A stretch of 64,000 nt of DNA. It comes from Rhodospirillales bacterium (lineage in GTDB: Bacteria > Pseudomonadota > Alphaproteobacteria > Acetobacterales > Acetobacteraceae). Under the pieces are notes generated by a model. The model was not told the origin of the DNA and did not search any database. It worked only from the letters and a program-made list of their open reading frames with translations. Made by a program: the position numbers and the translations under genes. The stretch lies in assembly GCA_025359905.1 (NCBI GenBank), contig JANYDF010000028.1, forward strand, positions 1-64,000, read 5' to 3'. The stretch's first letter is position 1, and each line of letters opens with the position of its first letter. Below are positions 15,090 through 33,540 of this stretch, one piece after another.

Positions 15090-18000
15090 TTATATGTCGT
15101 CGCATTCAACTGCCGGGCCGGGCAGCGCTGGCCCATTTGGGCGTTGCCGCATTGCCAGCCCGACGGCCCGCCCTGGCACGTCGAGCACAAAGGCGCACCG
15201 CCCCCCGGCCAGTCCGGCGCGGTCCAAGTCGGGCCGCCAATGATTGGCTACTGTCCTGCCGCACGCGGCGCCATCGCGCCACGCCAGCAAACTCACCGGC
15301 CGATCCGGCATCGCCGGGTTCAACGCCCAGCCCTCCACGCGGGTTCCATTTTGTGTGCGGTGAAAGTGCTCGATATGGCCAAGCAACGGCCCATTGGCGG
15401 CCACGGCGGCAACCCCGAATAACCGCCGCCGCAGGGTTTCCAGCGCGCCGCCGCTGTCGATGACGCGGGCATGGGCCGGGCCAGGCAGCGGGCGCCGCCC
15501 AGCTTCGCGGTCGAACAGCACCGGATCACCGGACGGCAGGAACGACTCGGCGGCCGCACCCTCGGCCCAAACGATGCTGTGTGTATCGAGGCCGATATGG
15601 TGATACGATATGTGTCCCGCCGGCGCGCGATGGATGCTGTGGCCGTTGAGCAGGGCCACGGCTGGCACCAGCACACGGCGCAGCAGCAGCGCATGCCGGG
15701 GCGACACATACAAGTCGCGCCACGGCAACCCGCCGCCCAGGGCGCCAGCGGTAATGCACACTGGCCGGAGTTCTGGCGCCGCCGTTGCATCGGCGCGGCG
15801 GGCGGCCACCCAGCGCAGGCGGCGCGGACCGCTTTGCGTGGCGACCCAGTCGCCGGGGCGTAGCTGTTCCACCGGCACGCCGCCGTCCGGGGTGGCGATG
15901 CGGGTTCCGGCGGCGAAGCACGGCACCAGTTCGATCAGACTGCCGCCGTTGCCGTCTGGCAGCACCAGGATGCTGGGTGGAGCGGAGATGCCTGCCAGCG
16001 CCAGCGTGCCGAAGCTGCCCGCAGCGCCGCTCAGCGCCAATGCGCCATTGCCGCCGCCCAGATCGATATAGCTGGCGTGGGTGACGTTGACCGCCGCAAG
16101 GTCGATGGCGTTGCCAAACGGCTCGCCTGGGCTGGCCTCCATCCCGGCAATGACCGCGCCGGTGGCAAGCGCCGGGCCGAACAATTCCAATGTTGCGTTG
16201 CCGCCGGTGAACACCACGCTGGCCGTGCCGGCGATCCCGCGCGGGGCGTAGAGCGTCGCATTGCTGCCGATCTGCACCGTACCGCCGCCGGTTATGCCGC
16301 CGCCGACCGAGAGCAGGCCGCTGGACACCGTGAGCATGCCGTCCAGATCGAGCGCCCCGGCAATGCTGCCGTACCCGGTCAACTGCGCGCCCGCCGCGAG
16401 GCTGACGCTGGTGGCGGACAGCGTCTCGCCGCTGAGCGTTTGCGTGCCGGTCAAGTGCAATGCGGCGCCGGTCCCGCTGCTCAGGGCAATCAGCGTGCCG
16501 CCGTGGCCGTCGGGCGAGGCGGCCCAGTCTTGGCCGTCATAGCCGCCCGCGACGGACAGCGTGCGCAGCACTGTGCCGCCCGCCGAGAGCGTCAGCACGC
16601 CAGCCGACCACATGGCGGCGTCGATTTGAATGCCAGCCACATCCAACACATCGCCTGCCGCGAGATTTTCCAGCGTGGCGTCCAGCGTGGCGGTGTCGAG
16701 TTCCAGCGTCGCATTGCCGCCGAACCACACCGGCAGCGTCACTGGCGCGAACACCGTGAGGGTACCGCCCGGGGCAATTTCCAGCGAACCGCTGCCGCCC
16801 ACAGGCGCGCCGATCACCAGCGCGCCGCCCTGTACGCGCAGACACCCGGCCACATCGGCCGGCGTTGCCATGCGGCCGTAGCCCGCCAGCGTGGCCCCAA
16901 CGGCAATCGCCACGGTGCCTGCCTGCGGGGCGGCCGCACCGATCACCAGGGTCGAGACGGCATCCAGCGAAAAGGTGCCCCCGGCAAGCGTGGCGGCGGC
17001 GATGTAAATGCTGGCGCCGCCGGTTGCCTCGATGGTAGCCGCGAGGCCGGTGGCGTTGGCGATTGTGGCCGCGCCTGCGCCTTCGATCGCCAGCACGCCG
17101 AACCCGGCGATGTCGCCGGCCAGCAGCACCGCACCCGGCAGCACCGCCAGCACGCCGTTCAGGGTCAAGGTGCCGATTGCGGCGTGGCCGGCGAGGGCCA
17201 CCTGATTGTTGGCGGTCAGGGCGCCAGCCGAGGAGGTGCCCGCCAATTCCAGCAAATCATTGCCGTCGCCCAGCGTAATGTCGGCCACCACCATGCCGCC
17301 GATGCTGGCGCTGGGCAGTTTGACCACGCTGCCGCCCATGCCGTCCGGGAAGCAAATGAACGTGGATGCGGCAAAATCACCCGGCAATGACAGCGCCAGT
17401 GAGCCGCCATCGGCAGCGGCGAGGGTGAGCGTGCCCGCCTGCCAAACCGCGCCGGTGACGCGGGCTTCGGCGAAAGCGATGGCGTCGCCGGGAACGAAGC
17501 CGGTCAGTGGTGCGCTGCGCGCTTGCGCCAAGGTGAGCAGATCGAGCGTCGCATTGGCGCCAGCGAAGGCGAGCGGCAACGCGGCCGGCAGCCCGCGCGG
17601 CAGATACAGCGTGCCATTGGCGCCGATGGCCAGGGCGCCGGAGCCCTCTACGCCGCCGAACAACGCCAATGCGCCGCCTTGCGCCAGCACCATGCCGTCG
17701 TTTTCAAGCGGCGCATTGATCTGGCCGCTGCCGGACACCCATGCGCCGAAGCTGATTGCGATGCTGCCCGCATCCGCCGCGCCGCCGATGGCGAAGGCCG
17801 ACGCGGCATCCAGACCGAGCGTGCCGCCCGCCAGCACCAAGCTGCCCGCGACGATGCTGCCGCCATCGAGCGCCGCCGCCTCGCCGGTTAAGGTGAGGGC
17901 GCCAGCGACCGCCAGCGTGGCGCCGCCGCCTTCGGCCAGCAACGCGCCGCTGCTCACTGTGGCGCTGGCCGCGAACAGGCTGGCCGCTCCGCTGAGCGCG

Positions 18001-18197
18001 AGCGTGCCGGACACGGCGAGCCAATCCGCCGTAATGGTGCCGGTGAGCGCCACACCACCGGTGATGGTCAGTGCCGAGGCCACCAGCGACAGATCGAGCG
18101 CGATCAGCCCGGCATCGGCCCCGGCAATGCTGATGGGGTCGGCGGCCTGGATCGCATCGGCTGGGCGGGCAGAAACAAGCGGGGCGAGGCGGCGCAC
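15090..18197 (-). CDS. Large modular beta-repeat protein with C-terminal Hint domain
   Basis: 1035 residues from a GTG start with AGGAG 12 bases upstream; no clear signal peptide. Residues about 1-730 are Ala/Gly/Leu/Thr-rich beta-helix-like sequence, arranged as three similar modules. Each module ends with a GNATLEL- or ANATLDL-type strand and then a PDGxGGxxIxL block. A Hint_2-type domain follows: PCFAAGTRI, VEQLRPGDWV, DLYVSPRHALLLRR, IGLDTHSIVWAEG and AESFL. The last 90 residues (HFHRTQNGTRVEGWALNP...ANHWRPDLDRAGL) look like a small beta domain that I recall from other acetic-acid-bacterial surface proteins. It is probably exported and autoprocessed, but this is inference. Confidence 0.75.
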   Translation of the reverse strand: MRRLAPLVSARPADAIQAADPISIAGADAGLIALDLSLVASALTITGGVALTGTITADWLAVSGTLALSGAASLFAASATVSSGALLAEGGGATLAVAGALTLTGEAAALDGGSIVAGSLVLAGGTLGLDAASAFAIGGAADAGSIAISFGAWVSGSGQINAPLENDGMVLAQGGALALFGGVEGSGALAIGANGTLYLPRGLPAALPLAFAGANATLDLLTLAQARSAPLTGFVPGDAIAFAEARVTGAVWQAGTLTLAAADGGSLALSLPGDFAASTFICFPDGMGGSVVKLPSASIGGMVVADITLGDGNDLLELAGTSSAGALTANNQVALAGHAAIGTLTLNGVLAVLPGAVLLAGDIAGFGVLAIEGAGAATIANATGLAATIEATGGASIYIAAATLAGGTFSLDAVSTLVIGAAAPQAGTVAIAVGATLAGYGRMATPADVAGCLRVQGGALVIGAPVGGSGSLEIAPGGTLTVFAPVTLPVWFGGNATLELDTATLDATLENLAAGDVLDVAGIQIDAAMWSAGVLTLSAGGTVLRTLSVAGGYDGQDWAASPDGHGGTLIALSSGTGAALHLTGTQTLSGETLSATSVSLAAGAQLTGYGSIAGALDLDGMLTVSSGLLSVGGGITGGGTVQIGSNATLYAPRGIAGTASVVFTGGNATLELFGPALATGAVIAGMEASPGEPFGNAIDLAAVNVTHASYIDLGGGNGALALSGAAGSFGTLALAGISAPPSILVLPDGNGGSLIELVPCFAAGTRIATPDGGVPVEQLRPGDWVATQSGPRRLRWVAARRADATAAPELRPVCITAGALGGGLPWRDLYVSPRHALLLRRVLVPAVALLNGHSIHRAPAGHISYHHIGLDTHSIVWAEGAAAESFLPSGDPVLFDREAGRRPLPGPAHARVIDSGGALETLRRRLFGVAAVAANGPLLGHIEHFHRTQNGTRVEGWALNPAMPDRPVSLLAWRDGAACGRTVANHWRPDLDRAGLAGGRCAFVLDVPGRAVGLAMRQRPNGPALPGPAVECDDI

Positions 18198-18943: not shown

Positions 18944-19059
18944 CGCTGACTGCCCCTGGTCAGGGTGAAGCAATCGCGGGCCGGGCGTGGGTGTGTGCGC
19001 AAGGGTACAGTGTGCGGCGTTTCATCGCCCGAGGGAATAGGAAAACTTACTCACAACCC

Positions 19060-19104
19060 TTGCCCCGTCAGGCGGTGGTGTGGTTATGTGTTCTCGAAAT
19101 GTTC
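19060..19104 (+). promoter_or_regulatory. Promoter with an alphaproteobacterial LexA (SOS) box
   Basis: GTTC (19090-19093), seven bases, GTTC (19101-19104) is an exact match to the GTTC-N7-GTTC operator known for LexA of alphaproteobacteria. It abuts a possible promoter TTGCCC (19060-19065), 18-base spacer, TTATGT (19084-19089), so a bound repressor would cover the transcription start. The downstream ATG is at 19124. Confidence 0.7.
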
Positions 19105-19123: not shown

Positions 19124-19519
19124 ATGCTCACCGTCCGCGCGTTCGTTCACCCCGGATTGGAACGCAAGCCGAATCCGCTGCGCCGGGTGGAGCCGTTCCG
19201 CAGCGCCGAGCAGGCGTGGCTGTGGACGATGGCGGCGCTTGCTGCGCGCCGTGACGGCACGAGCCGATCGTCTGGCGGCAGTATTCCACGCCCTTGCGAT
19301 CCGGATGACGTGATCCGTTGCCTGGATCAGCTTTATCAGCGCCGCAGAATCGATTTGGCCCACGCCCGCGTGCTGCGGAATTGGGGCGAACGCGGCACGG
19401 CGCCCGACATGCGTTATCCGGCCGAACGTGCCGAAGCGCGGCTGTGGGGCGAGGCGATGGAGCGGCTGGAGTGGCCGCTGCGGGTGCGCGGAATCTTGAT
19501 CGATGCCGCGAAGCTTTAG
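19124..19519 (+). CDS. Conserved hypothetical protein under a putative SOS box
   Basis: 131 residues. The ATG at 19124 follows GAGGAG by 7 bases, which decides the start over an in-frame ATG at 19109. The sequence is Arg/Trp-rich and largely helical, with conserved-looking blocks FRSAEQAWLWTM, RPCDPDDVIRCLDQLY, RRIDLAHARVLRNWGERG and RLEWPLRVRGIL. I recall similar proteins in other alphaproteobacteria without an assigned role. The LexA box 20 bases upstream and the divergent S24 repressor suggest a DNA-damage or prophage-derived function. A T-run follows the stop, without a stem. Confidence 0.75.
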   Translation: MLTVRAFVHPGLERKPNPLRRVEPFRSAEQAWLWTMAALAARRDGTSRSSGGSIPRPCDPDDVIRCLDQLYQRRRIDLAHARVLRNWGERGTAPDMRYPAERAEARLWGEAMERLEWPLRVRGILIDAAKL

Positions 19520-19530
19520 GATTTTTTTCG

Positions 19531-19558
19531 TTGACAGGATGCAGCGCGGCGCTTAAAT
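19531..19558 (+). promoter_or_regulatory. Near-consensus sigma70-type promoter
   Basis: A perfect TTGACA (19531-19536), 16-base spacer and TTAAAT (19553-19558). It lies only 12 bases after the preceding stop codon and would start a transcript near 19565. Confidence 0.65.
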
Positions 19559-19564
19559 CTGCTC

Positions 19565-19652
19565 CTGTCGGCGGGAGAATTATATCTTCTTCCCCGATTT
19601 CCTCCCCCAGACTTGCTGTCAGGCCGCTCCCCTCCCCGGGAGCGGCCTTTTT
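19565..19652 (+). ncRNA. Putative trans-acting small RNA with anti-Shine-Dalgarno tract
   Basis: About 88 bases between the promoter at 19531-19558 and a strong terminator. There is no coding potential. The middle is CU-rich and contains TTTCCTCCCCC (19598-19608), complementary to ribosome-binding sites, as in the CCUCCC-type sRNAs of Rhizobiales and Rhodobacterales. The 3' end is the intrinsic terminator hairpin plus T-run, as in Hfq-dependent sRNAs. The alternative is a terminator-containing leader of the gene at 19684. Confidence 0.5.
19622..19652 (+). terminator. Rho-independent terminator of the putative sRNA
   Basis: GGCCGCTCCC (19622-19631) and GGGAGCGGCC (19638-19647) make a perfect 10-bp stem with a 6-base loop, followed by five T residues. 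Confidence 0.9.
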
Positions 19653-19683
19653 CTGTTGTCCGCTGCCACGCAAAGGGACCCCC

Positions 19684-19950
19684 ATGGCATTCGCCGTCCG
19701 CAATCTTTCGGTGCTCGCTTACGCCCAAGGCTTCACGCTTTGGCACTACCGCGCCAACGTGCCGACGCTCGGCGCGGCCCTGGTGCAGCCCGCGACGCTC
19801 GATGAGGTGCGCGCCCCCGGTTTCTTCGACCCGGCGGCCGACATGCTGGCGGCGGGCGATATGGTGATGGTGTCCACGCCGGCGGCCGGCGGGGTGCTGT
19901 TCGTGACTGGGATCGACGGCGGGGTTCGCACGGCGGCACTTGCCGCCTGA
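19684..19950 (+). CDS. Small hypothetical protein
   Basis: 88 residues beginning MAFAVRNLSVLAYAQGFTLWHY, with AAGGGA about 8 bases upstream of the ATG. The C-terminal half, including DMLAAGDMVMVSTPAAGGVLFVTG, is predicted beta-strand rich. There is no signal peptide and no recognised domain. It lies 31 bases after the sRNA terminator, so its expression depends on read-through or on a promoter not seen. Confidence 0.65.
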   Translation: MAFAVRNLSVLAYAQGFTLWHYRANVPTLGAALVQPATLDEVRAPGFFDPAADMLAAGDMVMVSTPAAGGVLFVTGIDGGVRTAALAA

Positions 19951-33326: not shown

Positions 33327-33540
33327 CCCCCCTCTGTCACGGAACCTGAGAGATTCCGGCGGCCAACCCAGACGGGCGGCGACCGTTACTCCGTCGGTGC
33401 AGCCTGCCCCTAACGGGGCGGGCCGGCTTTCCAGAGGTTCGTATCCCGAAGCGGTCCATTAGCCTGAGCGTTTCCGGGGGCCGGTTGCGCCTTCGGCGGC
33501 GTCCCCAAGCCATGAGGGCGCGCTCTCCCGCTCAGGGTAA
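33327..33540 (-). promoter_or_regulatory. Tandem glycine riboswitch controlling gcvTHP
   Basis: Read on the minus strand, aptamer 1 (about 33428-33535) has GCGGGAGAG, GCCGCCGAAGGCGCAA and GGAAACGCTCAGGC. Aptamer 2 (about 33327-33427) has TCTGGAAAG, CACCGACGGAGTAA and GGAATCTCTCAGGTTCCGTG. This is the classic two-aptamer glycine riboswitch arrangement. About 67 bases then separate it from the gcvT ATG, with a possible CCGGTC...GACCGG hairpin (about 33274-33320) and the SD GGAG. Glycine binding would be expected to turn the operon on. Confidence 0.93.

Follow-up and report, generated by a model that had tools for sequence, protein, structure and literature searches.

Gene content of the locus

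In the window (the whole stretch of 64,000 nucleotides that was analysed), a short predicted RNA is located between two small open reading frames, p131 and p88, and a repressor gene, rep, is divergent from p131 (Table 1). The window also encodes, at 15090-18197 on the reverse strand, a repeat-rich protein of 1035 aa with Hint_2 close to the C-terminus.

Table 1. Positions of the genes and sequence features in the window, with the basis of each assignment.
Feature	Position	Strand	Basis
rep, S24-type (CI/LexA-like) repressor, 215 aa	18296..18943	-	Peptidase_S24 E 1.3e-22; phrog_4, transcriptional repressor
TAGGAA in the rep/p131 spacer, candidate Rep site	19038..19043	+	58/64 distinct spacers
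GTTCTCGAAATGTTC, LexA-type box (GTTC-N7-GTTC) before p131	19090..19104	+	box in 53/64 distinct spacers
p131, 131-aa ORF, candidate Q-like antiterminator	19124..19519	+	26 relatives in genome contigs; AF2 models
TAGGATTTTTTTCG, operator-like motif, overlaps the p131 stop codon, just upstream of the -35	19517..19530	+	motif counts, 55 promoters
Promoter	19531..19558	+	TTGACA 19531-19536, weak -10 TTAAAT 19553-19558; aligned relatives
RNA (~88 nt, predicted ends)	19565..19654	+	model R1 match, 71.7 bits; fold z -5.7
Hairpin 1	19567..19598	+	predicted fold; covariation; arm-swap test
UUUCCUCCCC, anti-Shine-Dalgarno (anti-SD) tract	19598..19607	+	9/10 letters of the αR8 10-mer UUUCCUCCCU
Intrinsic terminator and T-run	19621..19653	+	terminator scan; covariation of modelled pairs
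p88, 88-aa phage-like ORF	19684..19950	+	29 nt past the RNA match; phrog_18004 E 1.3e-6

Promoter, fold and terminator of the RNA

The predicted -35 element, TTGACA, starts 11 bases past the p131 stop codon on the same strand and agrees with the consensus at all six positions. The -10 element is weak by E. coli rules: either TTAAAT with a spacer of 16 (4/6), or TAAATC with a spacer of 17 (3/6). A mechanical sigma-70 scan called no promoter here, and the arrangement is retained in the aligned RNA promoters of relatives despite the weak -10. The terminator consists of 11 pairs (19621-19648) with the T-run behind; the terminator scan by itself carries little weight (2 found vs 1.6 expected in shuffles).

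The RNA has a minimum free energy of -42.1 kcal/mol; 200 dinucleotide shuffles averaged -24.8 (sd 3.0), which puts it at z -5.7, and not one of them folded as stably. The predicted fold runs from hairpin 1 (-14.8 kcal/mol by itself) through the open pyrimidine tract, in which CCUCC (19601-19605) is unpaired with a probability of 1.0, to the terminator.

Conservation and selection of the RNA

Between p131 and p88 of relatives, the same layout recurs in different letters, and hairpin 1 formed in 18/18 local folds (-12.8 to -25.6 kcal/mol). MAFFT put the 3' arm of this hairpin wrongly, so that RNAalifold detected the terminator only, and a hand-set structure was used for the covariance model R1, which was built from 14 syntenic sequences including the window's, whose own score is therefore partly by construction. 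In 46 matches (44 distinct sequences) aligned by fitting to the R1 structure, the covariation score was 0.498, compared with 0.196 for shuffled and at most 0.149 for slid controls, which, like those of the arm-swap test, account for relatedness only in part. In this model-fitted alignment 87.8% of cells were paired, and 17 of the 20 modelled pairs had changed on both sides (8/10 in hairpin 1 and 9/10 in the terminator). The arm-swap test (19 sequences) is independent of any 3'-arm alignment: own 5' arms gave a mean of -16.7 kcal/mol, while swapped arms gave -12.9 (sd 0.6); 0/20,000 permutations were as good as the own arms, and single 5'-arm chimeras were weaker than the own pair in 282/342 cases. 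Since compensatory changes keep stem 1 paired in relatives and the fold is better than all 200 shuffles, the element is, as judged from sequence, a selected RNA with a conserved structure.

Most of what the preliminary description had proposed for the RNA itself was borne out. Its "near-consensus" promoter holds for the -35 and fails for the -10 (at most 4/6), and its 10-bp terminator is present at a length of 11 pairs. The non-coding, terminator-ended RNA of ~88 nt was supported as conserved by R1, covariation and fold stability, and its unpaired anti-SD middle by the openness of CCUCC; it resembles alphaproteobacterial anti-SD sRNAs, of which αR8 (RF00519) is the closest. The covariance search in relatives that it had proposed yielded 61 family matches of at least 40 bits.

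Distribution across genomes

Besides the window copy, no R1 match above 17.2 bits was found in the 4.63-Mb genome. At E<=0.01, R1 matched 194 of the 299 genomes searched in the family and 88 of 289 at class level; weak matches include αR8 siblings and chance, and only those of at least 40 bits were counted. p88 was next on the same strand in 41 of the 61, with a gap of 15-35 nt in 40 and of 108 nt in one. The other 20 comprised nine portal-type loci, two before a distant p88 (L146, L150), one lone copy (L145), five with another RNA and three chance-like matches (L151, L153, L157). These last eight loci were excluded from the set of 55 loci used below, as were L020 and L022 for degeneracy, L033 and L041 at contig ends, and the truncated L005; some loci of the set are very closely related, L082 and L083 carrying an identical RNA. 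The window's family is Acetobacteraceae-like: its named relatives include Roseomonas, Limobrevibacterium and MAGs that carry the label Acetobacteraceae, Rhodospirillales or Asaia.

The five loci with another RNA (L138, L139, L143, L144, L154; ~2500-2630), a side catch of R1, hold a conserved terminator-ended RNA with CUUUGCCUUCCUCAACCUUGCCU in five family genomes. The opposite-strand ORF beside it looked like ispF.

A plain DNA search of 60 relatives returned, besides the window, a single match of 31 bases. The only Rfam match at gathering level was a glycine riboswitch aptamer (64 bits) at 33442-33540 of the window, on the reverse strand. No earlier description of such an RNA was found in the literature searched (open-licence papers), and the available part of a Gluconobacter RNA-seq paper does not mention one (PMC5756330).

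The anti-SD CCUCC was present in the linker of 45/55 RNAs (dinucleotide shuffles: mean 20.7, max 31) and missing from that of the other 10; its average unpaired probability was 0.87, compared with a background of 0.42 for all 5-mers.

Phage-like units downstream

In 54 of the 55 loci, the terminator was followed by a phage-like unit: p88 within 150 nt (43 loci) or a T7-like head-tail-connector (portal) gene (11 loci). Neither was found downstream in L145. Upstream, p131 was present on the same strand in 50/55. p88 belongs by its PHROG match to a family of unknown function, and was present in 137/299 family genomes. Relatives of p88 occurred in 19 viral contigs, where no such RNA lay directly upstream of them, and no p88 was found in the phage collection searched; p88 genes of L017, L018, L019, L024, L025, L030 and L032/L044 are also not preceded by such an RNA.

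In the portal-type arrangement, rep and p131 come first; an ORF bearing a conserved RHCF motif lies between p131 and the RNA, and the RNA is followed, usually after a short ORF at 30-54 nt, by the connector (PF12236). In the Roseomonas locus L037, the portal (PF12236, 424 bits) is accompanied by a T7-type scaffold (PF05396), and the Roseomonas aerilata stretch also occurs as a viral contig (L135). The Roseomonas portal was not found in the window's draft genome; therefore the window holds at most a remnant, or a derived form.

Two further observations concern copies in other settings. Genome G005 carries in L145 (2526-2616) a second RNA copy with its own TAGGAT promoter, with no p131 or p88 nearby; its linker, by eye, complements the leader of the following ORF. 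In two viral contigs from IMG/VR (L124, 1860-1954; L125, 4022-4119; both on the reverse strand) an αR8-like RNA with CGUUUCUCCCUCAAACU scored 28.8 and 28.6 bits with R1; it lies ~0.9 kb from p88 on the opposite strand.

The preliminary description had taken the RNA for an independent sRNA locus, an idea that conservation only as the leader of the next gene would refute. Its independence proved only partly right, because almost every copy leads into one of two phage-like units. Conservation as a leader applies largely (54/55); the two unrelated downstream units, L145 and the kept CCUCC argue against its being no more than a leader.

The RNA could be a purely cis-acting leader, in which hairpin, tract and terminator would decide whether polymerase reads on into p88 or the portal operon, or how these are translated, and the released RNA would have no targets of its own. 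The position before one of these units in 54/55 loci fits such a leader, as does the ribosome-binding site of p88, which often lies right behind the T-run, and CCUCC could pair with the site of the gene behind the RNA. However, the tract is open and kept in 45/55 RNAs although the downstream gene differs, the L145 copy is beside neither gene, and the RNA resembles trans-acting αR8 RNAs. For the start regions of four genes nearby, pairing with the linker was unremarkable (-8.2 to -10.5 kcal/mol). Given the two unrelated downstream units, L145 and the retention of an open CCUCC tract, we regard a purely cis-acting leader as rather unlikely.

Repressor, LexA-type boxes and a common promoter motif

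In Rep, Ala99-Gly100, Ser138 and Lys175 were invariant in 13/13 aligned relatives; by analogy with LexA/S24 enzymes, we take Ala99-Gly100 to be the cleavage site and Ser138/Lys175 the catalytic pair. Two motifs recur in the 64 distinct rep/p131 spacers: TAGGAA, for which 500 shuffles gave a mean of 2.2 and a maximum of 8 against the 58 observed, and GTTC-N7-GTTC, presumably the alphaproteobacterial LexA box, for which shuffles gave a mean of 0.2 and a maximum of 3 against 53.

The promoter of the RNA has the TAGGA motif in common with the rep/p131 spacer. AGGAA was present just upstream of the -35 in 40/55 RNA promoters (shuffles: mean 5, max 14); the first 28 of the 55 loci were chosen by a -35-like word before the RNA, so that the -35 is there by construction and AGGAA is not. 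TAGGA[AT] occurred in 36/55, the window having the TAGGAT form. TAGGA was absent from six αR8-type promoters tested and from two more inspected by eye. The full operator pattern including the -35 had no other exact match in the genome and revealed no wider regulon there, and its two one-mismatch matches were fewer than the eight of a reversed control pattern. Rep may bind the TAGGA sites, as their joint occurrence in spacer and promoter suggests.

In many rep/p131 spacers (e.g. L039, L013) two TAGGA sites are exactly 22 bp apart, a distance that fits paired operators.

p131 as a candidate antiterminator

For the AF2 model of p131 (pLDDT 80.5), the four best structural matches were all phage 21 Q (Z 6.0-6.7; next 3.7). 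The model of its Magnetospirillum ortholog (37-39% identical; pLDDT 89.6) also matched Q21 first, at Z 5.5, followed by a sigma -35-binding domain at Z 4.6. The two models share most of their alignment, and Z values under 8 may arise by chance for helical proteins. Other searches with p131 gave no support: i) Foldseek with the p131 model was not significant (E 4-6); ii) p131 had no Pfam or PHROG match; iii) none of 22 p131 sequences matched PF06530, the Q21 family, at E<=10, and a PF06530 search of 249 phylum genomes found none in the window's genome; iv) HHalign of p131 against Q21-type proteins gave 0.6% and 0.3%, below the 2.3% of an unrelated control; v) no match was found in solved-structure sequences or viral fold models. 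Q families are reported to occupy equivalent genome positions with no significant sequence likeness (PMC7171158). Based on the models, p131 may work like a Q antiterminator.

Kinship with αR8 RNAs

RF00519 (suhB) scored the window RNA at 26.0 bits (E 0.006), under the gathering score of 41 bits and fifth in its genome; at E<=1 this family matches 13/14 control genomes, with a score over the cut-off in one. The best score among 17 window-type loci was 36.3 bits (L004), also under 41. The αR8 10-mer is reported to carry an anti-SD signature (PMC12559287), and nine of its ten letters are found in the window tract. The main αR8 copy is described as lying beside an FGase gene (PMC12559287), and no FGase was found among the ORFs scanned beside the window element. 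R1, which was trained without αR8 sequences, retrieved a (G)UUUCCUCCCU-type core (by eye) in 10 of 19 class-level loci fetched (L097-L115), two of which adjoin FGase. Thus kinship of the window RNA with αR8 appears likely; by Rfam's rule it is not a member.

Of four αR8 RNAs elsewhere in the window's genome (G000; L059-L062, contigs C36, C106, C43, C146), two exceed the Rfam cut-off and two fall just short of it, the genome's best being the FGase-linked copy on C36 (L059, 50.1 bits). The window RNA thus has siblings in its own genome whose tract is similar. In two loci a canonical suhB match lies downstream of p88, at ~0.4 kb (L012, 58.5 bits) and 0.95 kb (L014, 57.8 bits).

Such kinship raises the alternative that the RNA is an ordinary αR8 sibling acting in trans, whose independent sRNA gene came to lie before p88 by chance, with Rep, LexA and p131 having no role. 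The RF00519 scores, and the common order of hairpin, UUUCCUCCC, AAAC-like letters and terminator, are consistent with it. However, an ordinary sibling is at odds with the tight linkage to p131 (50/55) and to two phage-like units, with the promoter motif that is common to the rep spacer and absent from the αR8-type promoters looked at (six tested, two by eye), and with hairpin 1, which is strong where that of αR8 is weak. We therefore consider it unlikely.

Proposed mechanism

The layout matches that of a lambdoid late promoter, with a regulator gene in front, then the promoter, a short leader ending in a terminator, and the late genes. We see about an even chance that the RNA is the terminated leader of a prophage-derived late unit, the released form of which is probably an anti-SD RNA. 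Under this model, the locus would be controlled by the CI/LexA-type repressor Rep and by LexA, and p131, as a Q-like protein, would let polymerase past the leader terminator into the late genes (p88 here, the portal in loci of the Roseomonas type). In the absence of antitermination, transcription from this promoter would give the ~88-nt RNA with its stable 5' hairpin, exposed anti-SD tract and terminator, and this released αR8-like RNA would probably block translation initiation at GGAGG-type mRNA sites, as StxS and SisA reportedly do. The sequence itself shows the promoter, the selected RNA fold, the terminator, the gene order, the common TAGGA motif and the resemblance to αR8; binding by Rep, antitermination by p131, accumulation of the RNA and its action in trans are steps that we infer. 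A chance arrangement, in which a spacer between the p131 terminator region and p88 happens to be rich in pyrimidines, is extremely improbable: the region is GC-rich and neither the promoter scan nor the terminator scan exceeds chance by itself, but covariation, and also the arm swap and the motif counts, contradict it.

A further step would be to place phage late leaders and αR8 sRNAs in one lineage, in which a podovirus-like element carried a terminated anti-SD leader controlled by an SOS-sensitive repressor, and this leader was either the source of chromosomal αR8 or built from it. We think this quite unlikely; if it held, DNA damage would switch a single transcript from translational repressor to read-through leader.

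Comparison with known systems

Several known RNAs were rejected as identities of the window RNA. It scored under the Rfam cut-offs of suhB, CC2171, sX13 and others. CcsR/cuckoo RNAs carry the CCUCCUCCC motif in a hairpin loop and lie beside a DUF1127 gene; the window tract lies between hairpins, and p131 and p88 match no Pfam family. αr14/NfeR1 (RF02344) is likewise an alphaproteobacterial RNA with an anti-SD motif, and the window match to it is below threshold (26.1 bits; gathering 58.8). αr14 is described as having three hairpins with the motif in loops (PMC7143759), whereas the window RNA has two main hairpins and one tract between them.

The αR8 RNAs (MmgR of S. meliloti, SisA-D of Caulobacter; RF00519) have the same order of hairpin, open UUUCCUCCC(U) tract, AAAC-like letters and terminator, at a similar size, and SisA is reported to repress its targets through the 10-mer (PMC12559287). 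The window RNA has in common with them a Rho-independent terminator, and differs in its strong hairpin 1, its sub-cut-off score, its position away from FGase, and its links with both a phage-like unit and the TAGGA motif of the promoter.

DicF, from the cryptic prophage Qin, is also a cryptic-prophage sRNA; it is reported to stem from the dicB operon and to pair with host mRNAs (PMC12197685), and has no sequence or layout likeness to the window RNA.

In Stx phages, the terminated late leader (PR'-tR') is reported to give rise to an sRNA, StxS, that blocks a ribosome-binding site (PMC7873438). As is proposed for the window RNA, StxS is a short terminated RNA running from late promoter to terminator before late genes. 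It belongs to other bacteria and another phage type, and is described as processed and Hfq-bound (PMC7873438), while p131 is only a candidate Q. As to the layout before structural genes, a portal operon follows in 11/55 loci, and the window agrees in part, with p88 only; as to the upstream Q gene, p131 is found in 50/55, with a Q21-like fold by Z 5.5-6.7 only. If the late-leader model is correct, the widespread αR8-type sRNAs, whose siblings in Caulobacter reportedly have unrelated promoters (PMC12559287), would be tied to a definite circuit of repressor, LexA and candidate antiterminator, the unit would have been kept in many Acetobacteraceae, including those in which no virion genes were found, and the RNA would be the equivalent of StxS in alphaproteobacteria, the late leader of a prophage doubling as an anti-SD regulator.
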